NCBI GenBank assembly: GCA_000310025.1 | Contig: FN649734.1 | Location: 4,987,620-5,017,659, forward strand | From: Ectocarpus siliculosus | Lineage: Eukaryota > Sar > Phaeophyceae > Ectocarpales > Ectocarpaceae | Direction of reading: 5' to 3' | Length of the DNA: 30,040 nt | Part shown: positions 198 to 19,500 of the stretch, one piece after another | How the letters are laid out: each line of letters begins with the position of its first letter | Numbering within the stretch: the stretch's first letter is position 1 | Translations under genes and position numbers: made by a program | Notes under the pieces: model-generated | What the model was told of the DNA's origin: nothing | The model's input: only the letters and a program-made list of their open reading frames with translations | Database searches by the model: none

Positions 198-3100
198 CTG
201 CTCGGTCGGTCGGTCAGTCGGTTCGCAAAAACGTGAGACAAGGACAAAATGTGGTGGGCAGCAGCATGCGAACGTCGGCAAAAAGCGTGTGTGAGAGAGA
301 GAGAGAGCAGACAGAAGAAGAGACAACTGTGGCGCGCCGCAGGATGTGATCGTGGGCAAAGTCGTGAGACACAACAAAACGTGGTGGGCGGAAGCATGTC
401 ATACATCGGCAAACAGGGGAAGGAGAGAACAGATGTGGCCGGCGGCAGGCAGCATGTGGCACATCGGGTAAGAGCGAGTGGCGAGAACCTCTTGGCAACT
501 GCACCCCGGAGCTAGAGGGGTTGAGGGTAGGTATTCAATTCGCGGCGGGGCAGCAGCCAGAACACAGACACGGTCATGTTTCTTCACAAATGCGCAAAGG
601 AGGCGTCTTCGCACGTGCGCATAGGAGGCGGCATAACACACATGCTTGCGAAATACTCCTTTGGGATTTACATACGTAACACATGCGCCGTTTATAACAA
701 ACGCCAAAACCACACTTTCCCTTGCTACTTACCGCGAGCGCTGATTACAAGCGATAGCGATTGAAAGAAACAAAGGCAAGAAAATAACGCCGTACGTACC
801 GCCATACCGTACCACATACATACCTGATGGGACGGGTTCAGAGCGGCGACGGTAGCATCCTGCTGGCCAAGGTCGTGCTTGTACTGCGGAAGAGACCCAG
901 CGGGCCACGGCATGATGCCCTTGCACCTGGAATAAGGGTGGATCGATCCACACACCAACCGTGTCAGCGCCAACGTAAATGCATGACGTACATATGGTAG
1001 ATGTGACCACGGACGCAACAATCGAACGTGTAGAATACGATACTTGCTCGAGCCATGCAGATTTTGTTACTCGCGAAACAATGAAAAAAAAAAATCGAGA
1101 GAAAGAAACAAAATCGAAGACAAAAAAAAACAAACATTGAAGCAGTGCCGTTTGCGAGTGCACTTGGGCCGAAGGAGGAGCTGCGGAACGTGCCATGGAA
1201 TGAAAAACATGGAAAAAAACGGAAACAACAGCCGCAGAGACACGGGTCGCTCCGTCTGTTCATTTACCGGATCGCAGCCAACAGTTTGCGTGTAGACCCC
1301 TGCAAAGCAGGCCGACGTAAAGCTAACCGAGCACCAAGCGAAAACAAAAAAGTCAACAAGGCAGAGTGCGTCGGGGGATTGAAGACTTGGGACAAAAAGC
1401 AAGAAAAACTGGGAGGGAAAGAACGAATAACAAACAGGAAGAAAAAATGCTAGCTGCAAAATGCTTGCAACGCTCCGTTCGTGTAGCATATAGACCCTAC
1501 ACGTGGCAGCGCGCGTGAGAGAGAAGGCTTGGACAAAAAAAAAAATGAGAAAACGGAACAAAACAAAAGGAAAAAAAAAAATACACAGCAAAGGAACAGA
1601 CGAAACACTCACAAAGCGCCATCCGCTTAGGGCAGCTTGTATGATGGAGAAGGCATGGGAAAAACAAGAAACAGGACCAAGGAATAAAAAAGGGAGAGAA
1701 GAAAGCTACCAGGCGAAATACTTACAGAGCCCCATTCGCGTAGACCCCGTGGCAGCGTGCGTACCCCTGCCCGGCGTCCGAAAAGAGGTTCGGGTTCATG
1801 TTGCCGCAGAAGTTGCACATCATTACCTGCTGCGGCGTGAGAATAGCGGGGACGGTCACAAAAAAGGGGTACACTTAGGTGTTGGTTCAAGTAGCACGGA
1901 CGGTCATAAAAAAGGGTACAATTAAGTGCTACTTCAAGTAGCACGGACGGTCACAAAAAAGGGTACACTCAGGTGCTGGTTGAAGTAGCACGGACGGTCA
2001 AAAAAGGGTACGGTTAAGTGGTGCTGCGTAGCACACTTGCGGCCAAAAAAGGGTACACTTAGGTGCTAGTTCAAGTAGCACGGACGGTCACAAAAAAGGG
2101 TACACTTAGGTGCTGGTTGAAGTAGCACGGACGGTCAAAAAAGGGTACGGTTAAGTGGTGCTCCGTAGCACACTTGCGGCCAAGAAAGGGTACAATAATA
2201 AAAAAAATAAGCGCTGGCTGGAGTAGCGCGGGACGACGAAAAGGGGTACGAGTTTGCGAGCGTAGGCATCGACGAGGCCATGTCGGGGGGCGATGATGAG
2301 ATACGTCAACGCTGGCGGGAGCGTGTTGGCGAGGGTTGCTCGAGTCCACCTACCGCAAGCGCCAAGGATTTCAAGCGTATATATGTCTCCAATGTGCTCG
2401 ATGTGAAAAAACTCGGGCGCGTGTGTGTGACTGTGTGTGTAAGGGTAATCCACCCCTGCCGGGCTTTGTGCCCTCGATGTTCCTCGCACGAAGTAGGTTG
2501 GTTACGATAGCGGGTGTGTGTGTGAGGGGAATCCAGCCCAACCGGGCTTTGTGCCCTCGATGTTCCTCGCACGAACTATAATAGGTTGGTTACGATAGCA
2601 TAGGCTGTTCGAGACCCAAGAGATATCCTGCCAACTTGGCGATGTACCACACCTTCTCCTCCGATTCCAAAACAAAAAAAAAGACGTTTTTCGGGTCGCA
2701 AGAGAAGGTGCGTGTTGGGGTCGGAGGAGAAGGTGTGGTGCATCGCCAAGTTGGCGGGATGACCCTTGGGTGCCGAACAGCCTACAGCCAGCTTCATCTC
2801 ATCTCTCTGCAGATGCACGGCGGTATGGTAGGCATCTATCGTAGCCAGCCTCCTCGTGCTAGGAACATCGACAGCACAAAAGCCCGGTAGGGGTGGATCC
2901 CCCTCACACACGCGCGCGCGCGCGCGATTTTTCACCTCGTGTGCAAAGTTTCGTGAAGCGTCACATGTTATCTGGACGCTATTACGCAATATCGTACGTG
3001 TTGTCGCCACAACAAAACCGTTCAGGTCTCCGCTCAGTACCACTTAATATCTACCTCGTACACGTTTTTTACACAAGCTTCGAGTGCTCGACATCGATCC

Positions 3101-5289
3101 AAACTCTCTCGCGCGCGCATCTCACCCGCCCAGCGGCAGCGGGAGGTGGCATCAACATTCCTCGGATCACGCCGGCGTTCATAATCGCCTGGACATCAAC
3201 ACTAGAAGGTGTTTGGCCAGTAAGCTAAATAGGATGTGGGTAGCGGGGGGGGGGAAAGGATTGGAAATGGGCGGGAGGGAGGGAGGAAGAGAAGGAGTGA
3301 AGATGGGAGAAGGGTTGAAAATCGGAGGGAGAGAGAGGGGTAGAGAGAGAGGGAGGGAGAGAGAGGAGGACAAGTGAGAGGAGGTGAGACGAAAAAGAAG
3401 GAATCAGGGCTAAGGTTTCAATTTCTCCAGCTTCATGTCTTCGCGGGAATTCCGTGATTCCGTGATCCCATAACCTGTTTCGCGGGATAACTAAACATAT
3501 ACATGTACTCGGGGGATATTTTTGGCAGAACTCATGGAACCCGAATCGACATAAATGCATGGTGCTTCTGAAGCTTATATATATATCCAGTAAAAAATCA
3601 AGTCTACTTCCACCAGACCTCTTGCAATCCTTTTCTATCGCGCTCAATGTTGTGGAATTCTGGACAAGCACAGAGAGCCCAACCCAAACTGTTGAGTTGA
3701 CCCAAACTTTTTGAGTAAGAAAGTAAGGTAGCAAACTCCCCGAAAACAAAACATCACGAGAAACAAAAGATAAAAACAGACAAAATGTTCGTATCGTACT
3801 GTATGGAGCAACAATAAAAAAAAAGATCGAAAACAAACGAAGACCGAGACCAAGTTATGCAACAAACCAATAGCAAACGACTTCTCACCGGAGTCAGGGG
3901 CGCGTATCCCAACTGCGCTGCCGCCCACTGTTGCTGTACCGTAGTTCCCGACATTGCGGCGGCCGCGGCGGCGGCGGCAGCAGCGGCAGTAACTCCGCCG
4001 TCGTCTGCCATGCCTGTGGACATGTGGGCTTCCAGCAGGCTCACGTCCACCCCACCCTTGGTACCGAGTCCAAGAAACAAAGCGGCGTTCATCCATGGAC
4101 GACGCAGCAAACGTTGCGAGAACAAGTGTTTGTTAGGAGACTTGACGAACGGCCGGCGCCTGCCGTCTGAAGTCACAGGTTATCCGATAAGGGTGTCGAA
4201 GAAACAACGCGGCATTCATCCGTGGACGACGCAGCAAACGTTACGAGAACACGTGTTTGTCATGTGACTTGAAGAAGGGGCGCCGCCTGCTGTCTGAACT
4301 CACAGCTTGGGGTTGTATGACCGAAAGAGGCGTACTGTACCAGAGAGTGGAACGGCACTGCAACATGACATGGCAAGTAAATACAGCAGCAGTCGCATAT
4401 ACGACGGCCGCGATATCGGAACAGCAACAGCAGCAGCAGCAACAACAACCAATACGAGTGGCAGCCAGAACCAGCACCACAACGCCCAACACATTGACCA
4501 CGAGCCAAGCCACACACCAAATACGCCAAACCTCACCATGGTAGCGGCCATCCCTCCGACACCTCGACCGCTCGTCATACCCGCCGCCGCCGTCGACAGT
4601 CCCGGCACCCATTCCGCCGCCGCCGCCGTCATGCCCACACCGCCGCCACCACTCACCGTCGCCGCCGGCCCGCCCATCCCCGGCGGCAACCTCGCCCCCG
4701 CCGCCGTCTGCTTGGACAAGTCCACCGGCCGGTAGGCGTTCGCCGCTGCTGACAGTCCCGGTGCCGCTGCTGATAGTCCCGGCGCCGCTGCTGACAGTCC
4801 TGGCGCCGCCGTCACCATCCCCGGTTTCCCCGACACACCGACGTTGCCATTGTTGCCAGCGGCGGGCGTGCTTGTCTGAGGGGGAGGGGGGCCCCGCGGC
4901 GGGGGCGGGGGCGGCGGCGGGGGCGGCTGCTGCTGCTGCTGCTGTTGGCGTTGGCGCGGCGGAGGCGCAGCCCGGTGGTTGCTGTTGTCGAGCTGCTGGT
5001 TGGGCAGCGTCTGGTACTGCTGGTACTGCTGTTGCTGCTGAGACACCGGGGGAGGAGGGGGTACCTGCGGAGGGGGGGGAGGGGGCTGCTGCTGAGACGG
5101 CGCCGCCGCCGCCGCTTTCGGCGCGGCTTGCTGTGTCTGCAACGCGCGCGGAGCCTGGGTCTGGGCCGGCGCCGGCGCCGCGGACGCCCTGCCACCGCCG
5201 CCTCCTCTAGCCGCCGCCAGCTCGTTCTGGCGGGACCGCTCCGCCCTCTCCTCCCAGTCCACCGAGCTCCTCGGCGACGACGAAGACAC

Positions 5290-5322
<33 letters not shown>

Positions 5323-8300
5323 TGCAGGCCTTCCGCCGCGCGCTCGGCCGGCGCTCCCGTTGCTAGCGGCCCCCGACGTCGCCGCTGCTGTCCACCCCGA
5401 GCCGTCGCGCCCGGCAGTGGGAGCGGGAGGGTCTCCCCAGCCGTTGGCTTCCACGGGTTGCTTCTTCTGCTTCTGCTGCTTCTGCTGCCCCCAGCCACCG
5501 TCCGCGTCTTCCCGGGCGCGCATCGGGATAGCCTTGACCTGGACCCCCTCCCCGTCCGGGTGCCCCTGCAGCCCCCACCCGTTCACGCCGTCGGTAACGG
5601 CGGCGGCCTCCCCCCAGCCGCCCGCCGCCACCGACCTCACCTGCCCGCTGACTGGCGACGGCGGCGGCCTCGTGCCGTTCTGCCCGCCGCCGCCGCCGCC
5701 GCGTCCGTTGCTAGCGGCATCGCTCTGCCCACCATTGCGGCTGCTGCGGCCACCGTAGGCGCCCCCCTGGCCCCGCCCGCCAGCGGCGGTCGATCCGTGG
5801 GCGGGCGCCGCCGCCGCCGCCGCCGCTCCCGGCACGGCGGTCGTGTGGATGGACGGCGGAGGCGTTTGGTACTGTGATGACGACGATGACGGGCTTCTCG
5901 AGGCGGCAACACCACCCCGCTGCTGCTGTGCGTTTTGGTTGCGGCGCTGCTGCTGCTGAGAGCCCCGCTCATCTCCTCGTGCGGGGCGGCCGCGACCGCC
6001 GGCACCGGAGACGGCGCGGTCACCGGCGCCGGCTGCGGTGCCGCGGGCGGTGCTGGCCGGCCCACCGTCTTCGTCGTCGCTCGAAAGCGAGTACCCGTTG
6101 TTCTGTGGAGAAGAAGAACGCAGACACGCTTGTTGCTAACATTTATCGTTTTCGAATTGTCGTTCTTCATTTTTGGCCAGGGGAGACCACACAACAACGG
6201 GGATTTGGGGAGTGGTTGCAGCTAAAAATAACAGGAAGGACAAGAACATAGATGGCGATTTGTGGTCCCAGGTTTGTAGGAGGAGGTGTGGGGAGGAGGA
6301 GGTGGGATGTATCAGCGAGGAATCAGGGGGGGGCAGGGGGTATGCTGTCCCGGACAATTCGAACGCCCGCCGGTGCGCCGTCCAAAACGCCTTCATAGCT
6401 CGTCCAAACAAAAACACAAGGGCCTTGCTTGTAACGTGCGGGCTTCGAGCAGTCAGCTTCTCTTGCCTAGCAACGGAATACGCTTGGGCACCGACAAACA
6501 ACTAACGAACGAACGTGTTTTTCGACCGACGCTTTCGACGAGCAACAACACCGGGGACTATTTAGAGCGCCGACTAACCTGTAGGGCCTGCTGGTAGCGC
6601 TCCAAAGAGCTGAGCGTGTTTTCGGCCTTTGTGGCTTGTAGCAGCTTCGCCTGAGCTTTTGCTTGCCTTCTCGGTTGGTTGCGGCGAGAGGGGCAGGAGG
6701 ACAACGCGGGGGGAGGGACGATTAGGCTAAGCCCTCGCTATGTATATAGCGAGGCAGGCATCCCTCGCAAGATGTAAGCGTTTGTACACCGATGCCAACC
6801 TATCACGAACTTTAACCAAAAGATACCTTCACAATCACCTAAGCATCATCACCATGAACACAAAACAATGATGGCGATGGCATCGAGACGCCTACGCGCT
6901 GCTCTCCTCCTTATGAAGCGCCACAACACCAACAACCACGACAACGAAATCGACATGAGTTCCTGTTGCTCTCCTCCGTATCAGACGCAACAACATCAGC
7001 GACAACATCAGCGACGGCGTCATCGACATGCTTACCGGTTGCTCTGCACCTCATCAAGGGCAACAACAACATCAACGACCACGACATCGAGGTGCTTGCC
7101 TACCTGTCGCTCTCCTCCTTGTCAAGCAAACAACACCAACAACAACAACATCACCGATCACGACATCGAGATGCTCATCTCCTTACCAAGCGCAACAACA
7201 CCAACAACGATTATGACGACATCGAGATTCATACCAGTTACTCTCCTCCTTTTACCAAGCGCAATCACAACAACAACATCGACGATGGCATCGAGATGCT
7301 TGCCTACCTGTCGCTCTCCTCCTTATCAAGCGCAAGGTTCTTGGCGCTAGCGACCGTCTGCCACTGCTCCCACTGGTCCGAGTCATCGATGACGGGGGGC
7401 GGGCTTCCGTTCCCGCTGTACCCGGAGCTGCGCTCGCAAAACAAACCAGATGAAAACACGGGAGGGATGAAAGACAAGACAAGCAGCGAGGGGGCACGCA
7501 GGCGAAGGGGGAGGGAGAGGGAGAGGGGAGGGCGTTGAAAACTTGGCGAAAGGGAAGGCGAACAGGGGGGTACTGCTGTAGGCAACTTGCCGGGCAAAAG
7601 AAAAAAAAAACAGTACATACTGAGGTTGTCGCTGCTGCTGTTAAAATGTTCTTCCACCCCGGGGATGCACGCCATTCATCCCCTCCCTTTCCTCCCTGAC
7701 TATTCGACGTTCACCCCCCTGCCTGACTCGCATGATACACGGGTACTGTAGAGCCGGTAGAGACCCACTAGTCTGCCGTGGCCTCTCAGACTGCTAACAC
7801 CGGTCAATCTTATTTTGATTCCTCTAGTATTTCGCCGAAACAGAGGATTCATCCGCAGTAGCCCCTTGGGCACTTGGGCGAGTGATCCCTACTCAACACC
7901 CGGGTATACCCGGTGTTCATCCAAGACCGATATGTTCCCGTAGCGCTAGCACGCGGCCCTGTACTCCTCCAGATTAACTTTATACCCCCCCTCCCAATCC
8001 CCGGTGTCCCCCACCGAAAGACTGACCTGTTCCCGTAGCGGTAGTACTCTGCCCGGTACTCCTCCTGCTCCTTCAGGTGAGCGCGTTCCTTGGCCTCCCT
8101 CTTGTCCTTCTCCCTTTTCTCCTTCTTCTTCTCGCGCTTCAGCCTGGCCAGCTCCTTCTTCTCCCACTCTGCCTCCTTCTTCTTGCGGGCGGCCTCCGCC
8201 TGACAGACAGACAGACAGACAGACATAACGCCAGAAAAACCAAGTCGATGATGTTTTATCAATATGAATACATAAAGGCGAGAAACATTTAACTTACACG

Positions 8301-10455
8301 GGAAAAAAGAGAGAATAAAAAAAAAGAGCGCGGGCGTCACATAAAAGAGGCAAAAACCAAGAGGAACCACGAAAAAAAAAAATATCCAGAAAACACAATT
8401 TAAAGGAACAGACATTGGCGGAATCTGTTCTTTCTCATGCTTGGAGCTACTGCCGTACATAGTTATGTCCACATGTTGTCCGTCCGTCCCACTATCTTCT
8501 CTGCCGAATCGAATGGCATAAAGACAAGGCAGCACCAAGCAAACAGCACGGCAAACGACGCAGGAACATGTGATCAGCAACATAGCGGACGGCGACCGAC
8601 ACACCTCCTCCTCCTCTGCCTTCCTCTGCCTCTCCAAGAGCTGCCGCCTCTTCTTCTCCAGCAGCTGCTGCTCGAGCGATTGCTTTCCCGTAGACTGCTG
8701 GGCCTTCCGCTCCTGTGGAAGCAGAAGACCAACAGGAGAAACAGGTGCATAAACGGTGATAACGCGCAAAAAAAAAGAAGCTAAAAGGGTGTCGTTCATT
8801 AAAACAGACCCAAAATAAGCCCAGTTTCCAGCCGGTTTGTACTCACTGAGAAGACTTGAGCATATCCCTTTCGATTGTGGTTATATATCGAATGGATAGT
8901 CTTTCTCTCTGTTTAACGATCATTTTCAAAAAAAAAATAGATGCGCAACGGTTCACAACGCGCAAAACCAAGCACAGGGACGTGCAGTACACGAGAAGGC
9001 GCATCGTTCAGTTCACGAGAAATAACGTACGCACGTACCTCTTCTTGCTGCTTCTTGCGCTTCTCCTCCTCTTTGGCTCTTTTCGCCTTCTCCACCTGCC
9101 GCAGGGCGAGACGTGAAAGAATATGCATGCATCGCATCGCCAACAGCACAAAAAACACTACATCAGCAGCACACGCCAGGCAATATAAACGGCACGCCAG
9201 ACAATCGACCGGAGGGGCAGCTAGGGCAGAGCATACCGAGGGCTGCAAAACACAACGCCGCGCAACGGTCAAGGCAGCATTTATCGGAGATATCGGAGAT
9301 ACAGCACACAGCAACGGTCGCCACCGGAGAGATCCGTTGGTGTCAAGATGGGGAGACAAATTAGGAGAAATAAACGTCAACTGACGAGAAGCAACAACAA
9401 ACAAATCACACACAACACTCAAATGCATACAACTTCATCGATAGACATTTTTCAACGCAAAACACACCACACTACCGCACACACCACACTAAACACGACG
9501 TATTACGCCAACGTACAACTCAACGTACATTAGCCTGAACCTACTTTAACATACCTTGTCGACAGCTGCTGCGAGAACCTCCACGGCAGCGGTAAGATTC
9601 TTCTTCTCCTTAAGGCGTTTGGTGGACGATAGGGCAGCCTGGCAGATCTCGAGGGCGGTCTGCTGGGGGACTACCATGCCGGTCACTGGCGGAAGGGTGG
9701 CACAAGAAAAAAAGTAGAACAGGGGGAGGGACGCAACAAAAAAATACATTGGGGCGGGGGGGGGGGATCGGTCTGGAATATTATTGAGGGAGGGTCTGCT
9801 GTGAACTACCACGCCGGTGACAGGGCGAGGGAGGGGGGCCACAACAAGTAGAACTGGGCGGGGGGGGGGGGGGCTGCTCTCCTTCTCTGGCACAAGGAAC
9901 TTGATCGACCATGTACTCCTTTCGAGGCAACCTGGCCGTTCTGTTGGGCCGCTTCCTTACGGCGAACTTTAACTTTTGACAGGGGGGGCGAGGAAGCACG
10001 CCGGGGGGACAGAAGCAAGATGGGAGAGGCGGAACGGACCACGCCCGAAAGAAAAGGAGGGAGGGTGGCGATAATCTCTTTGCGCCTAAAATATTCATCA
10101 GTACTAATTTACATTATTTGAAAAAATGACACTTTCTCTCTCGAACCTCGCACTACAGCAGCTAGGATCCTCGTGCCACGTAGCAGTAAGGGCCAATGAA
10201 AGAACCGGTCCAGCCTTGTATCGAGGACTCTCTCGCTCTCTCTTACCGGTGGGATTCGAAAGCTGAGTCACCCTCGAGCCGGCGGCGAGCAAGGCGCTCA
10301 TGGCGTGGATGTTTCCCCTGAAGGAGGCGTGCATGAGAGGGGTCCATCCCTTCTCCAGGCACGTAGCGTCCAGGTCGGTTTCTAGCTTCAGCGTGGTCGA
10401 CCGAGTCCTGCGAGAGAAAGAGGGAGGGCGAGAGGGAGGGAGAGGGAGAGGGAGG

Positions 10456-10519
<64 letters not shown>

Positions 10520-13500
10520 GAGAGAGATAGAGAACGGGGTCAGCTGCGGTGGCATCAGTACCAGGCCGTGGGCACAACAAACCCGGCAGTAAGAAGCAGC
10601 GTAGCAGCAGCATGAACTGCAGCAGCAGCAACAAGACGCAGGGGCAGCATGAACAACAACAACAACAACAAGGAGCAGCAGCATGAACCACAGCAGCAAC
10701 AATAACAAGCAGCAGAAGCGGCACGAACAGCAACAGCAACACAACCAGCAGCAGCGACGCCCGTAACGACGCACCTTTCTCGCAGCAGCAGGTCAAGCAG
10801 TGCATCATCTCCTTCTCCAGCCGCCTTGTGCAGCACAGTCAGACCTTGCGCATCAACCTGAAACAAGCCATGCCACGTGCGAAATATTCTAGGATTGGTT
10901 TGCATGCCCTACTGACATCGGCGAGAAAATAAAGCAAGCCCGTCTCAACCCCATCTCCATATTTCGTGCGGGAACTACCAAGAACTCCCGACACCATTCC
11001 GACGCCAAGATGTAAAACAAAAACGCAAGCAGCATGCAAGTGTTCATCATCATCATCATCATCATCAACAGGAATCACCCGTGGCAGCAGCAGCAGCAGC
11101 AACAGCAACAGCAACTGACCCAACAACATTCCCCACATTCTATGACATCGACAGCAGCAGCAGCAACAACCACAACCCCAAGCGAGTGCCAAACAAACAC
11201 AACGGATCTGTGTTTTGACAAAATGCCGCAAACGTCATTATGGTTGATCTTTTTGGCAATACAGGAGTAGATGTACATGCTTGACAGCCAAAACGGGTGT
11301 ACTCGACAACAGCAACTACTCCTGCTTGCCTTGCTTGCGACTTTGGCGTAAGAACAGGCTGAATGACTAAAATTGACGTGTCCATCCTGTTTATGTCTAC
11401 TCCTACTCCACCCTCCCCATCGGCAGTTGTTCCCGGCAGCTACGCCAGCATCATTTTGTAGGCTGGTGCACTGGCTGTCACAGGTGCTACGTTGGGGTGC
11501 TTGCCCAGTCAAGACTATGGCGCACACGCAGCAGTACTCATCACTTCTAAACAATCAGCACTCACAGAATTTCTGCCGGAGCTACAATCCACCGCCACAC
11601 AGAAGGGTTCCTCTGCCCGAGGCCCCGTACCCTCACACCAGTCACCAGTGATATTCGCCAAATGTGGTAAGCAAAGCTCTGAGCTGCAATCCTGACTTGC
11701 TAACTAACCTTGGAGAGGTCGACACGGTCCCTCTCCCCCCCGGCGTCCTTCTTCACTGTCCCCTGCAACAGGTACGTGGCCACCTCCAGCCTGCCCTTCC
11801 CCACAGCGTCCGACGTCTGGCCCTCGCCCACACCGGGGGACACGCACCTGCAACAACAACGGAGGGGGGGGGGGGGTACTCTTATCCTTCCTACTTTGCC
11901 AAAGGTGGCTCAACAACGGAGGGGGGGGTCAGAAAAATGTTGATATATTTTGGGGGGGGGTGTTGTGTATCCGACCGTACCCTGGTGGAGTTTCGCCTTT
12001 GGGTTAGGGTTGGCGTTTATAGCAGTTGATCCTTGCAGCGCTTGGCCGGTCAAAGCACATTTTGTACACGTGCGGTACGTATGGCGTCCTGGACACAGCA
12101 GTGCTGGATGGCAGTAGAGTTCCTGCTGTGGCACACCACTGTACGAATTTGGTGGAGACACTCGCCCCCCCTACGCCATTTATTTTCTCCTGCCACTCTG
12201 TTGTGTTCCACCCTTCACGCCGCCTGTGCCCAAGTCTGTTGCTGGTGTGTTCCATGTTCCAACCTCAAAATCACAATAAAAAAAAAAATGACGACACGGA
12301 GCAACAATGATCTACGCAAGAGAGGTGAAAAAGAAACCAGCCAATCTGACGATGAAAAAAATCAACTCCTTGAAAAAACGATATACTGCTGTCAAGAGTC
12401 TCCCCTCCTATGCTTACATGTGCAGGAGTGTAGCGCCGCTCTTTCCCTTTCCGTCCTGTCGATCGGACAGCTTCACGGAAGGGGCGGACGCGGCACCATC
12501 CTGTTTCTCCAGCATCGGTCGGAGGTCCGGCAGGTTGCCCTCCCGGCAAAGTTCGAAGGCTCGGGCGCGCACTGCCTCCGCCTTCTCCCTCTTGCTGTCC
12601 ATCTCGGCCTGTCGACAAAAAAAAGTAAGGGAAAAACAGAAGAAACAAGAAAACACATAAAAGGAAACATCACCACATGGATCGTCGTGAGGGTGACCAT
12701 TTTCTCTTTTTGTTTCATCGGTCTGTCGCGAAAAAAAAGCAAGGGAAAAACAGAAGAACAAGAAAACAAATAAACGGAAACATCACCACATGGATCGTCG
12801 TGAGGGTGACGATTTTCTCTTTGTTTTTCATCGGTCTGTCGCGAAAAAAAAAGAAGGAACAAACAAGGCATGGATCTTTGTGAGAGTCGCGACATTTTCT
12901 TTTTTCTTAGTTTGCCTTGTCTATTGTTCATCGTCCTGTCGAAAAAAAAAGAAGGAACAAGACAAGGCATGCATCGTTGTGAGAGTCGCGATATTTTCTT
13001 TTTCTTTTCTTCATCACTATTTAGGTTATAAATCAGCGCTCAGGAGCTCCATCCAATCCGGGGTCACACAGAAAGGTTCCTCTCCCTAAGGCCGCCTACC
13101 CAACCCTCCAGCGGTGCTCGCCTATGCGACAAGAGTGTAGCACTCTCTTCCCTCAAGGTTACGGGGCTAAAAAAAGGGTACGGCATGGTTCATTTTTGAA
13201 TGTGTGGACCTGTGTGCATTCCATCTTTAACGACTGCTAACGCTCAAGTCAAAATTTCAGCAGGAACAAACACGTAGGCTACACAAAAAGTGTGTGTCTG
13301 TGTGTACGGAGGCGTCCTTCTTGTCTTGTACATGTACGCATGCGGCAGAACCAGTCCGCTCAGGAGACCACACATACATATCACATACCAGGCTAGATCC
13401 GGCTCTCTCAACCGTGGGGTCACGGTAGAGCATTGGCATCGCTACCAACTCCTTCACGGCGTTTCCACCACAGACGATTTCACTCGGCGGTGGACTCGAC

Positions 13501-16500
13501 AGCTGCTTCGTCAAATGTTTTCCACATCCTAAAATCTTATGCATGCACTGCTGTAGCACCCTGGCGGTCGTGGTTGGTGACAAACTATTAATAGGTACCC
13601 CGTCCCGATGTACCGTACGTGACATGACACAATATACCACACCCGATGTACCGATGTTCAAAGCTCCCGCTGGACCGATGTTCAAAGCTCAAATACTCCA
13701 CGACGAAGAGGACGCGCATATTACACAAAAACGATGCGTTTCCCGGAAGCTCGTGACGAGATCGCTCCAAGGCCGCCGTTTTCGGCATCAGTACTCTTTC
13801 TGCTGTGGAGAAACGAGCTTTGAAAATCGATCCAGGGGGTGCGATATCTCACGTAATGTCATGCCACCTACGGCAATCTATGTGTCTTGTGCCTGTCTCT
13901 CGTACCTTTTTCTTCCTCTTCTCTTCCTTCTTCGCGGCTTCCTCCTCCCTCGCACGTTTCTCATCTTGCAGCTGCGGTTGATTGACCAATCAAGATGGAT
14001 CGAGATAGGAAACGAACGAACGAGAGAACAGCACACAAAAGAGTCAATCAGATCCCATCTTGCAGGTGCGATTGACCAATCAAAACGAATCGATAGAGGG
14101 AAAGCAAGAACGAATGGACAATCGGAAAACAAGCAAGCCAATTAGATTTCATCTTGCAGCTGCGACAATCCACCAATCAGAATGAATCAAGAGAGGGAAC
14201 GAACAAACGAACGACCGGCAAACGCGAGACAATCAGATCTCATCTAAGCAGCTGCGATTGATCGACCAATCAGGATGAATCGAGAGAGGACAAACGATGG
14301 ATCGGCACGCACGACAACCGATCAGATCAAGCAGTCTAGAGCAACGAACACGGGCAAAATCATACACGCAGGGGCGGGGGGCGATGTCCTCATCGCAACC
14401 ATTCACATCATCCATTTGGCTGGCCCGATACTTCCGAAGGTGGGAAGGAATTGACGGCACACCCACAAGAAAATCAGATGAGAGGGGCCACAACACCATC
14501 CCAACCAATTGAACCGGGAGCTGCAGGACGTCTCCTCAACCACTCTCGTACAACCTAACGTGAGAAAAGACTTGCGGAGCGACACACAAGCCGTCGCGTC
14601 CCCCCGTCGCCAAAACCACTAAACCCCGCCAGAAAAGCTGTTGTGCTTTCGGCGGTAAAAACCTCGCGGTTCCGTCAAGATCTTAAACGCGTATTATACT
14701 TGCAGATATTTCATTTGGTCAGAGACGAGTCGAGTCTCTCCTCATACAGTACATCATTACACCCGTTTCGAACGCCTGTCACGGCAAATCCCGCTCATAA
14801 CGAAAATCGCCCAATATTCCTTCGAGAGAGGGGGATGCCGTAGAAGCGTGTAAAGTGTGCGATCGATTGATTTTCTATGTAACAGGTCGACCTCTCCTCA
14901 ACCAAAAGGGTGTCCATGCCGACAAAACGGTGGTCGTTGGCAATACGAATCTCGTCGAGAGCTACTATACCTTTTCCTTGAACGGGACGGCCGGGTTTCG
15001 CGGCCTCTTGGGTTGTGGAGCAATCGACCTAAAGAAAACGATCGCACAAATACCGCTGTACGTCCACCCTCGCCGTATGATGCAACTTTCAGTGTATAGC
15101 GCCCAGCCCGAGTCAGTTGGACCGGTACGGGTGTCAAGAGGGAAGAGAGCCGAACGAATACTGATGTGAAGACAACAACAACCCGCAAGCTTCCTTCAGC
15201 ACTCACAGCTAAGACTCCCACCAATACACCTCCTTCGCGCTGTGGTATTATCTCGAATGGGCATTCGGTCAGTGATTTGCATGTATACTTCCTAGAGATG
15301 CGATGCTGGTCCGTGCTTAGCTCACCTGCTGCTGCTGTTTTTCCTTTTCGCGCTTGGCTCTAGCGATCTCCCTCTCAGCCGCTCTCTTCTTGTCCTTCGC
15401 AGCCTGCTGCTCGCGCCGTCGCTGCGCCCTCTCCTGCTGCGCCTGCCAGAATGCCTCGTCCTCTTCCCTGGACACACACACCCCACCGCACACAACGAAA
15501 AAAAACATATTTCAGAAAAAAACAAAAACACGTTCTGAAGAAAAACACAAAACAAAAACGGTACATATAGAATCACACAAATACAAGCTTTTCTAATGTT
15601 ACACACATGTAAGCTCTTGTAATGTTTCCCACAGGTGTTTATTTTTTTCCCATATTTCTGGGTCCACTTCTGTTTCCGCTCTTCGACTTGTACTTATTAC
15701 AAAGAAAGGTGCAACCCCTTTTGGGGGTAGTTGGCCTGCGTCAGTTGAACCGGCACGGATATTACAAGGTACTGAGCGGAGACCAGAACGGTAATAATGT
15801 AAAGACGACCACATGTTTCCTCTGCGTTTGTCAATTGGCACTCTCGAGTCACCTCCTCTTCATGGCCTTGGCTGCCTTTGCCGCCTTCCTAGCCTCCATC
15901 CTCGCTTGCCGGGCCTCGTACTTCATCTGCTGCTCGTACACCAGCCTCTCGCGAAAGGTGGAGGTGCTAGCGGATGCCTGACGAGAACACGAACAACAAC
16001 AGCAAGAAGAAGGAAAGACCCACACAACACACAAAGGGACGGATTCAACGGACAGGGCAAGAACAAATGGGGTGCTACGGTAGCATCCATGTTAAGATGA
16101 AGAAGGCGAATGGCACGATGCCTGGCGAGAACATGAAGAGGCAAAGGCCGACACAACACACAGAGGGACAGATTCAATCGACAGGACCAAAGGGGGTGCT
16201 AGGGTAGCATCCACGTTAAAATGCAGAAGGCGATTGGCACGATGCTTGACGAGAACAACAACAAGAGGGAAAGACTCACACGACGCACAAAGGGACAGAT
16301 TCAACGGACAGGGCAAGAACAAATGCGGTGCTAAATTTACGGTAGCATCCATTTTAGATACAGAAGGCGATTGGCACGATGCCTGGCGAGAACATGAAGA
16401 GGCAAAGGGACGGCTTCAATAGAGAGGGCAAGACAAAAAGGGGAGCATGTCAAAGGGATTCATGTTAAATGTGCTACAGCAGCGGCATGCCTAAGGAGAC

Positions 16501-19500
16501 AAAACCACCTACACAAGGAAAAAGGAACGCGTTAAAGAGAAGGAGGCAAAGGCAACAAGGCAGCGTGTGTTCTTAGACTTTGAATTTGTCGAGGCTACAT
16601 CAAATTCTTGACTGACGGCCAAGTTGTTCAGTGCTTTAATAGCGCTGAGTGTAGTCGTCTTTCCCCGTTACACAAAAAACGAAAAACACAAACAACAGAC
16701 TAACCACCCACATATTCCGGGTCCTCGTATGACGCGTAGTCGTCTTCATCATCGCTATCATCATCGTAGTACATGGGCCTCCCCCCCCCGCCGCCGCCCA
16801 TCATGCCACCCATTCCGCCGCCGCCCCGCGCGAAGCTCGGCATCTGCATGAAGACCCCCCCCCCCGGCCCGCCATTGATCTTTATCCCCGGACCCCCCCC
16901 CATACCCCCGAATCCTCCCATACCCCCCATACAGAAGATCTCCGAAAATAGGTCCATGAAGTCCTCCTGCCAGGAAGCGGGCGGGGCGAGGAGCGGCAGC
17001 GGGGAAGGAGGATAAAGAGGCTCAGAGATGTACCTAGAACTTCAGAGGGTGGGTGGAAACACTGGTGCTGTCATGTGGGCCCTCGAGGAGAGTGGTGGGC
17101 ACCAGGGCTGTTCCCATCTGCGCTAAGAATATACTTGAGGCTGGGAAACGACAACTGTCAAATTTGGGAAGAAGAGGGCTTGTTGGACCCGGAAGCGAGC
17201 GGTAAACAGGGATGATGGACGGTGGGCCTGCTGTTCTCGCCAACCAAAAAACGTGTGGCCACGTGTTGGGTTCGTTTGGCGAGCGACTAGCATACACAAG
17301 CGCGGAGTATCGGCTCGTCTGCTGCGGTACATTATTAGTGTGAAACCGTTGATATGGAAATGACGAAAGGATTCAACCGACAAGGTTTAGAAGGCTAAAT
17401 TTTAAGACACAAAAAAGAGCAAATCTAGCCAGGAGTAAACTGAAAGCAAACACGGCAACAGCAACGTTGAGAACATTCCCGCACACCACACGCAAACCTA
17501 CCACGCGCCGAGAGCGACCACTCAACCCTAACCCTTGGCCGGACACACGCCGCCCCTTTCGAAGCCAGCGCAGAATCTACTACTGGTACACCAGAAGCGA
17601 ATCCGTCACAGCAGTCGCAACCGTCCCAACAGACGAATCTCCCTTACCGGAGACATGCCTCCCCGACGGTAGCCGTGACCCCCCCCCCTCCCTCCGTGGT
17701 GGTGGTGGTGACGGCGCCCCCCTCCCCCCCCGTACTCGTCGTCGCTCGAGTCTTCGCTGTCATCGTCATCGTCAGATTCGTCCGATTTTTCTGCCGAAGG
17801 AGCGGCGACGACAGCGACAGCAGTGCGATGATGATGGAAATTTACCCCCAAGCGGAACGATGTTTTCGGGCCTTTTTTTGCTCGCGAGTGTACCAGTTCG
17901 AGTATCGTTCCGTGGAACACTACCGTCTTCTTCCGTGCAACTGCTACCGCCTTGTTCCGTGGAACACGCCCCGTCTTCTTCCGTGGAATACTACCGTCTT
18001 CTTCCGTGGAACTACTAACATCTTGTCCGTGGAACACAACCGCCTTCTTCCGTGCAACTACCGTCTTCCGTGGAAAGCTAGCACAACATCAACGTAATCA
18101 CATGAGGATGCGGTGTTCGTCAATGGCCACCCCGTGTGTACATGCGTACGTGTCAACATAACACACGAACTCACACGCAACAGCATTCAGCGCATTGCGC
18201 ATTTTCCGAATATTGGCCCCCTTCCAGGGTACTTCAATTTTTTACCCGCTGGCACTGACGTCTGTTCATTTGTCAGCCCGCTAGCGCGGCCGATGTTAAG
18301 ATAAAGACACACACAAACACAAGCGCTCGGCACCTTCCGAGTAGTAGCTGGGATCAGTCAGGCTCAGGTAGGCCTCGGCGACTTGCTGAAACTTGGCAGT
18401 AGCCTCCGGGTCGCCCTGAGCGTCAACGTGAACGTTGTCGTGGCGCCCGTCAGGGAGTAGCAAGACGGGGAGGAGGAGCGGAGGTTAGACGATATACACA
18501 CGGGAGGGAGGAACGGTACAGGAACGGAACGAAGGCGGGCTACTGTTACAAACGGAACGGTTCGAAGAACGGTTCACACTTCTTTTTTACTGCTGTCATC
18601 GCTCTCATGCAAGTAGCACGTCTCCCAACCGAAGCTATACCTTTTGGCTCGCGCTGAGGCGGCGTGAAAGAGGAGTGTTTCCACAGGAGGGGGTCTAATT
18701 GAGATCCGTTGACACCAGCGCTCGAGGCTGTTCGTCACCCCCCCGGGGGTTGTTACCTAGAACAGCGGACATCTGTAGTATAACCTTTGCAATACCCCAG
18801 CCTCGGCAAAAAGTAGTGGCTCGCAAGTGCGGTCGCCTACTTCTGTATTTCTTGCTGCAGTCTCTGCATCTACGACCTAGCCGGGGTGAGTGTTGTGTAA
18901 CTTCGAGCAGGGGGCGGGGCACAGAGAGCAACGTAGCTCGGTCGGGTGTACTGACTGTACGTAATCTACCGCGGGTGGAATAACGAGACATCACACCCCC
19001 TGGACCGATTTTCAAAGCTCCATCACTCCACACGACCAAGAGAATGATGTACATGGTCCAAACGATGCGTTTTCGGAAAGCTCTCAACGAGATGGTTCGT
19101 TCCAATGCCTTCCCTCCATTTTTGACGCCTCCACCCTTTCTGCGGTGGATTAACCGAGCTTTGACAATCGTTCCATGGGGTGGCATCTTGTGACAGCTAC
19201 GGGTATCCGGACCCTCGGAAGCTCTTACTGGCGCCTCTCTGTTTGTGTCCGTCATGGGCGTGAAAAACATCACACAATCAAACGGAGGTGTGTGCGATTT
19301 ACCACATTCCAGCGTGAAGATATATATATAAGTACTGTGTAGGCTTCTAGACTGAGCACCTGTTCTTATGGCCAAGTTCTTAGCTTTTGGATTCTTGAAC
19401 GCTCAAGTTCTCAACCGCGAAGTTCTCACGTTCTTCACAAGGGTATTGTACATGCACCCGAAAAAAAGAGGGAAAAAAAACGGGGTTATAGGAACACGTC

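Follow-up and report, generated by a model that had tools for sequence, protein, structure and literature searches.

Do tandem repeats that copy the splice sites of a gene over and over betray a process tied to exon edges, or are they ordinary duplications that sometimes reach an exon? The question is raised by a gene on the minus strand of a 30,040-nucleotide stretch of the brown alga Ectocarpus siliculosus (contig FN649734.1, positions 4,987,620 to 5,017,659; hereafter the window), in which a first-pass annotation, made from the sequence alone, had placed nine exon boundaries inside tandem arrays and had proposed a common process acting at exon edges. Our analyses show that the repeats are real, that many of them hold a splice site, and that six or seven of the nine boundaries bear the observation out. 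The best reading, which we consider quite likely, is that local tandem duplication of an ordinary kind has been tolerated across exon edges, in a gene where it is unusually frequent.

The exon boundaries come from a model in which splice-site and codon scores, trained on homology-defined exons, were followed by chaining of minus-strand exons. With an exon penalty of 13, it chains 18 coherent exons between 3889 and 18415, and more exons of the gene probably lie on both sides of this interval; penalties of 3 and 9 filled the introns with small doubtful exons and were set aside. Its numbering agrees with that of the first-pass annotation up to exon 19, and exon 21 of the latter is model exon 20. 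The junctions of this gene, as well as those of the control genes described below, are based on sequence signal, reading frame, and homology. In the joined protein, exons 9-11 are spanned by a Pfam ankyrin match (E 3e-8), which supports their junctions; the gene product also contains long charged coiled-coil-like stretches, as judged by eye. Which member of an array serves as the used site we infer from the reading frame.

To each splice site we applied a boundary-copy test, in which a copy within the adjacent intron is scored against 200 dinucleotide shuffles of that intron (p floor 0.005), in a gapped form with a 28-base exclusion. This form replaced an earlier gapped one, in which the donor query overlapped its own target and gave false matches at offsets of 14-16 bases. 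We also dropped a gapless strict-end form, which missed the exon 8 and 12 copies, and the use of Tandem Repeats Finder (TRF) as sole detector, which missed diverged arrays such as that of intron 16. Copies at p 0.005 were found for the acceptors of exons 7 (z 13), 8 (z 9.9), and 12 (z 8.5) and for the donors of exons 15 (z 9.8) and 16 (z 21), so that these five boundaries of the first-pass list hold strongly. The copied stretch includes some 5-39 exon bases beside the splice site. Upstream of exon 7 the decoy copies lie at 14251, 14159, and 14065, two of them with AG; all three exon 8 decoys keep AG, and four of the six exon 16 decoys keep GT, one decoy sharing the donor motif of the used site. 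TRF detects arrays with units of 113, 124, and 127 bases, among others, in the gene; two arrays are in contact with splice sites, at the exon 7 and exon 8 acceptors, and among the controls one lies near a splice site, ending 2 bases before an acceptor.

The other boundaries fared unequally. The exon 5 acceptor has the weakest copy (z 3.8, p 0.010-0.015), not significant when corrected for 34 sites; three units of the intron 4 array carry GTTCTCGYCAR/GCATC (16382, 16245, and 16121; match scores 17-18), and AG is kept in two. Two boundaries included in the first-pass list dropped out of it: the exon 9 acceptor has no copy above the shuffles (p 0.75), and the exon 19 acceptor has no significant copy (p 0.11), its 127-base array ending some 12 bases before the acceptor is reached. 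As for the donor of exon 21, the site after base 1726 is indeed copied (z 7.2, p 0.005), although the donor actually used is uncertain: a rival donor after 1765 scores better (4.0 vs 0.4), its copying is not significant in the boundary-copy test (p 0.065), and both candidates are in frame with the exon at 926-824. Donors at 18333 (p 0.030) and 17647 (p 0.005, z 3.7) also fall at or below 0.05, without a clear array.

Another point of the first-pass annotation, the position of the used site at the end of its array, follows from geometry. A copy lying farther out would be coding, so the rule is silent on the origin of the repeats and gives no information on mechanism. When a duplication spans an exon edge, use of the outer copy would make the intron grow, which is neutral, and use of the inner copy would make the exon grow and change the protein; this explanation of the rule by neutrality is an argument, not a measurement.

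Whether splice sites are favoured over intron interiors was assessed with control introns from six families retrieved by genome search (kinesin, Cpn60/TCP1, DEAD, HSP70, myosin, and kinase). We kept 162 of 214 homology-adjacent exon pairs (median intron 468 bases); the 52 dropped had no consistent junction, a score under 6, a margin under 1.5, or a position more than 8 residues off. The comparison thus covers a sample of introns from conserved families, which may not represent all genes. Random positions, which are not independent when they share an intron, were drawn only in introns longer than 230 bases (149 of 162 in the controls and 17 of 17 in the window gene), and splice sites were taken from all introns. 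At z over 6, copies were found in the controls for 4/324 splice sites vs 19/596 random intronic positions (p 0.08, the sites having the lower share); the window gene had copies for 5/34 sites vs 10/68 positions (p 1.0). Lowering the threshold to z over 4 gave 6/324 vs 26/596 and 5/34 vs 13/68, respectively, and the looser p of 0.05 gave 24/324 vs 64/596 and 8/34 vs 17/68. Duplication clusters crossed a boundary in 4 of 23 cases in the controls, vs 3.6-5.9 expected from uniform placement with a reach of 40 or 80 bases into the exon. Because the site and interior counts and the near-expected crossings of the control clusters agree on this, we conclude that duplications have no general preference for splice sites in this sample. 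The expectation that arrays lie nearer to splice sites than random intronic positions do was accordingly contradicted by the sampled comparison, in the controls and in the window gene alike. Splice-site copies similar to those of the window gene do occur in the controls, at two myosin acceptors (L094 and L121), one kinesin donor (L002), and one chaperonin donor (L041).

What distinguishes the window gene is the amount of duplication. Copies of splice sites at z over 6 are commoner than in the controls (5/34 vs 4/324; Fisher p 0.00055), and a duplication cluster is found in 8 of its 17 introns vs 22 of 162 control introns (p 0.002), or 16 of 117 when controls are matched for length (p 0.003). 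TRF arrays with a period of 9 or more make up 15.8% of its 17 introns vs 1.5% of the 162 control introns; the TRF base rate, taken from 13 of 20 random 2-kb pieces drawn, ranged from 0 to 4.9% coverage. These outlier statistics overstate the oddness of the gene, since it was chosen by eye because of its repeats. Control introns that hold a cluster are also longer (median 704 vs 436 bases; 22 vs 140 introns, p 0.0008), which would follow from a lengthening of introns by duplication, or simply from the greater room that long introns offer for it. For the window gene, the data support the first-pass view that tandem duplication lengthens its introns, with some duplications spanning the exon edge. 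For Ectocarpus, autosomal introns with a median of 524 bases and tandem repeats spread relatively evenly over the genome have been reported (PMC12477816).

The duplications also leave decoy sites behind, as the first-pass annotation had noted. In six arrays, 11 of 17 decoy copies have an intact GT or AG, where the identity of the bases around them predicts 8.4, and the decoys therefore show no sign of selective removal. Some score as high as the used site or higher: the exon 5 decoys (6.0 and 6.0 vs 5.6 for the used acceptor), the exon 7 decoys (3.0 and 3.2 vs 2.9), one exon 8 decoy (7.0 vs 5.2), and one exon 16 decoy (5.8 vs 5.8 for the used donor). The remaining decoys score lower, and exons 12 and 15 each have a single copy, which has lost the dinucleotide. 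Since several decoys score like the used site, local signals alone cannot account for use of the outer copy, and signals on the exon side probably decide which copy is used. Extensive enhancer-like exonic motifs and a low rate of detectable alternative splicing are reported for Ectocarpus in PMC4476162, which also proposes decoy splice sites as a driver of exonic splicing motifs.

Ordinary local tandem duplication could account for these features in a simple way. Duplications, mostly of some 60-200 bases, would arise anywhere in and around introns, possibly by replication slippage or repair, and would be kept when harmless. A duplication spanning an exon edge would be as harmless as an intronic one while splicing uses the outermost copy, the duplicated piece of exon becoming intron. 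Repeated rounds would then build arrays in which the used site necessarily comes last, and inner copies would persist as decoys, many of them with intact and equally strong local signals. The outer copy would be chosen from the exon side, with exon definition and splicing enhancers as the presumed reasons. Some results weigh against this explanation. The cluster density of the window gene, 0.75 vs 0.23 per kb in the controls (Poisson p 0.004), is unexplained beyond ascertainment. In addition, 4 of its 8 clusters cross an edge, vs 1.3-2.2 expected (P 0.02-0.14, for a gene chosen for the pattern), and the count rises to 6 of 9 (P 0.0006-0.014) when two crossings found only by a more sensitive, biased search are included. 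The excess of 4 in 8 is also what speaks for the process suggested by the first-pass annotation, namely slippage or repair initiated at exon-intron boundaries, by which copies of the splice signals would be fed into the intron. We regard this process as unlikely: the 162 control introns show no such excess, either in their clusters or in the comparison of sites with positions, and in the window gene itself, which was chosen for the pattern, interiors are covered equally often. With sites copied no more often than interiors in either set, the idea of a common process starting at exon edges is not supported.

The decoys raise another possibility, that some of the inner copies truly function as alternative splice sites, the arrays producing isoforms and the exon model being wrong at those places. 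The match in score between several decoys and the used sites of exons 5, 7, 8, and 16 is in its favour, and so is the exon 8 decoy at 12722, which has AG and would add 114 in-frame, stop-free bases (38 residues). Use of 15 of the 17 decoys would however cause a stop or a frameshift, one of the other two lacks AG, and, together with the low detectable alternative splicing reported in PMC4476162, this makes the possibility quite improbable. The 5-39 exon bases included in the copies recall the Rogers model, in which introns are born when AGGT-containing exon pieces are duplicated in tandem, but none of the clusters reaches both intron ends (0/8 in the window gene and 0/23 in the controls), and intron birth by duplication is therefore disfavoured, to the point that we give it very little weight. 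We give practically no credence to a mobile intron-making element (introner) as the source of the repeats. It would fit with clusters in as many as 8 of 17 introns of one gene; however, four arrays searched by DNA across the genome (189 Mb, 492 contigs) had no match outside their own place in a search that can miss weak matches, and a dispersed element is consequently disfavoured for these four.

If local duplication tolerated across exon edges is the right explanation, it would offer a simple neutral route by which introns grow past their own borders, each edge duplication converting a strip of exon into intron plus a decoy. If the outer copy alone is used, the arrays would moreover test the decoy-site idea with near-equal sites lying side by side. 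More speculatively, and with considerable doubt, the gene might be a duplication hotspot with natural ladders (about seven donor units in intron 16 and four acceptor units before exon 8) from which the outermost copy is reliably picked although some inner copies are locally just as strong; an exon 8 inner copy may already serve as an in-frame alternative site. Such ladders would constitute a natural experiment on how exon-side signals prevail over equal decoys in an alga whose introns are long.

Table 1. Exons and repeat arrays of the window gene (positions in the window; z values from the boundary-copy test).
Feature	Position	Strand	Basis and remarks
Exon 5	15853..15977	minus	exon model; acceptor is the last member of the 124-base array
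Exon 7	13971-13906	minus	exon model
Exon 8	12608-12418	minus	exon model
Exon 9	start 11847	minus	exon model
Exon 12	9685-9555	minus	exon model
Exon 15	8199-8027	minus	exon model
Exon 16	7427-7308	minus	exon model
Exon 19	start 4056	minus	exon model
Array of 3.1 x 124 bases, intron 4	16006..16407	minus	TRF
Array of ~94-base units across exon 7 acceptor	13959..14290	minus	TRF, z 13
Array of 113-base units across exon 8 acceptor, with a more diverged copy beyond	12604..12960	minus	TRF, z 9.9
Two-copy duplication across exon 12 acceptor	9664..9827	minus	z 8.5; copy at 9820 lacks AG
Two-copy duplication, offset 95, across exon 15 donor	7923..8065	minus	self-alignment, z 9.8; copy lacks GT
About seven diverged ~68-base units across exon 16 donor	6864..7335	minus	self-alignment, z 21
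Array of 1.9 x 127 bases, intron before exon 19	4068..4305	minus	TRF; crossing test p 0.11
Model exon 20 and diverged copy of GCTCT/GTAAGT at ~1612	1595..1829	minus	z 7.2 for site after 1726

The window contains other repeated sequences. Intron 2 holds about seven 24-base units containing TTCCGTGGAA (17908-18068), with no contact with a splice site, and microsatellites with plus-strand GACA and GA units occupy 8202-8225 and 10412-10533, directly upstream of the exon 15 and exon 11 acceptors. Two elements, each some 190-240 bases long and with terminal inverted repeats, lie at 13620-13861 and 18994-19182 and look related by eye. Among the 40 candidates scored out of 1326, the former, which lies in intron 7, has 39 other long matches (78-82% identity) and therefore probably represents a non-autonomous DNA transposon of high copy number. 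Between model exons 19 and 20, a fold-back of nested inverted repeats (2435-2919) has 73-base arms at 86% identity and further arms of 23-49 bases. The EsV-1-7 cysteine motif, whose family is expanded in brown algae, has at least 150 matches in the genome (all of the best 150 of 880 candidates).

Among open papers, judged from their listings, we found none on splice-site arrays that lengthen introns, and the arrays of the window gene are best placed by comparison with three known systems. They resemble intronic minisatellites and local tandem duplications in their head-to-tail, diverged units of about 24-127 bases detected by TRF and in the local nature of the four arrays searched, and differ from them in that several span an exon edge together with its splice site and in a cluster density roughly three times the control value. 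A tandem duplication across a boundary is reported to have made a new intron in the potato RdRp gene (PMC4974935). That duplication, as described there, likewise spans an exon-intron boundary and copies the splicing signals along, whereas here existing introns seem to have been lengthened and the clusters do not span whole introns. Finally, the decoy splice site model, as presented in PMC4476162 with Ectocarpus among its examples, holds that intron-rich genes face decoys and rely on exon-side signals; the window gene appears to be in the same situation, except that its decoys were physically copied from the true site and often have an equal local score.

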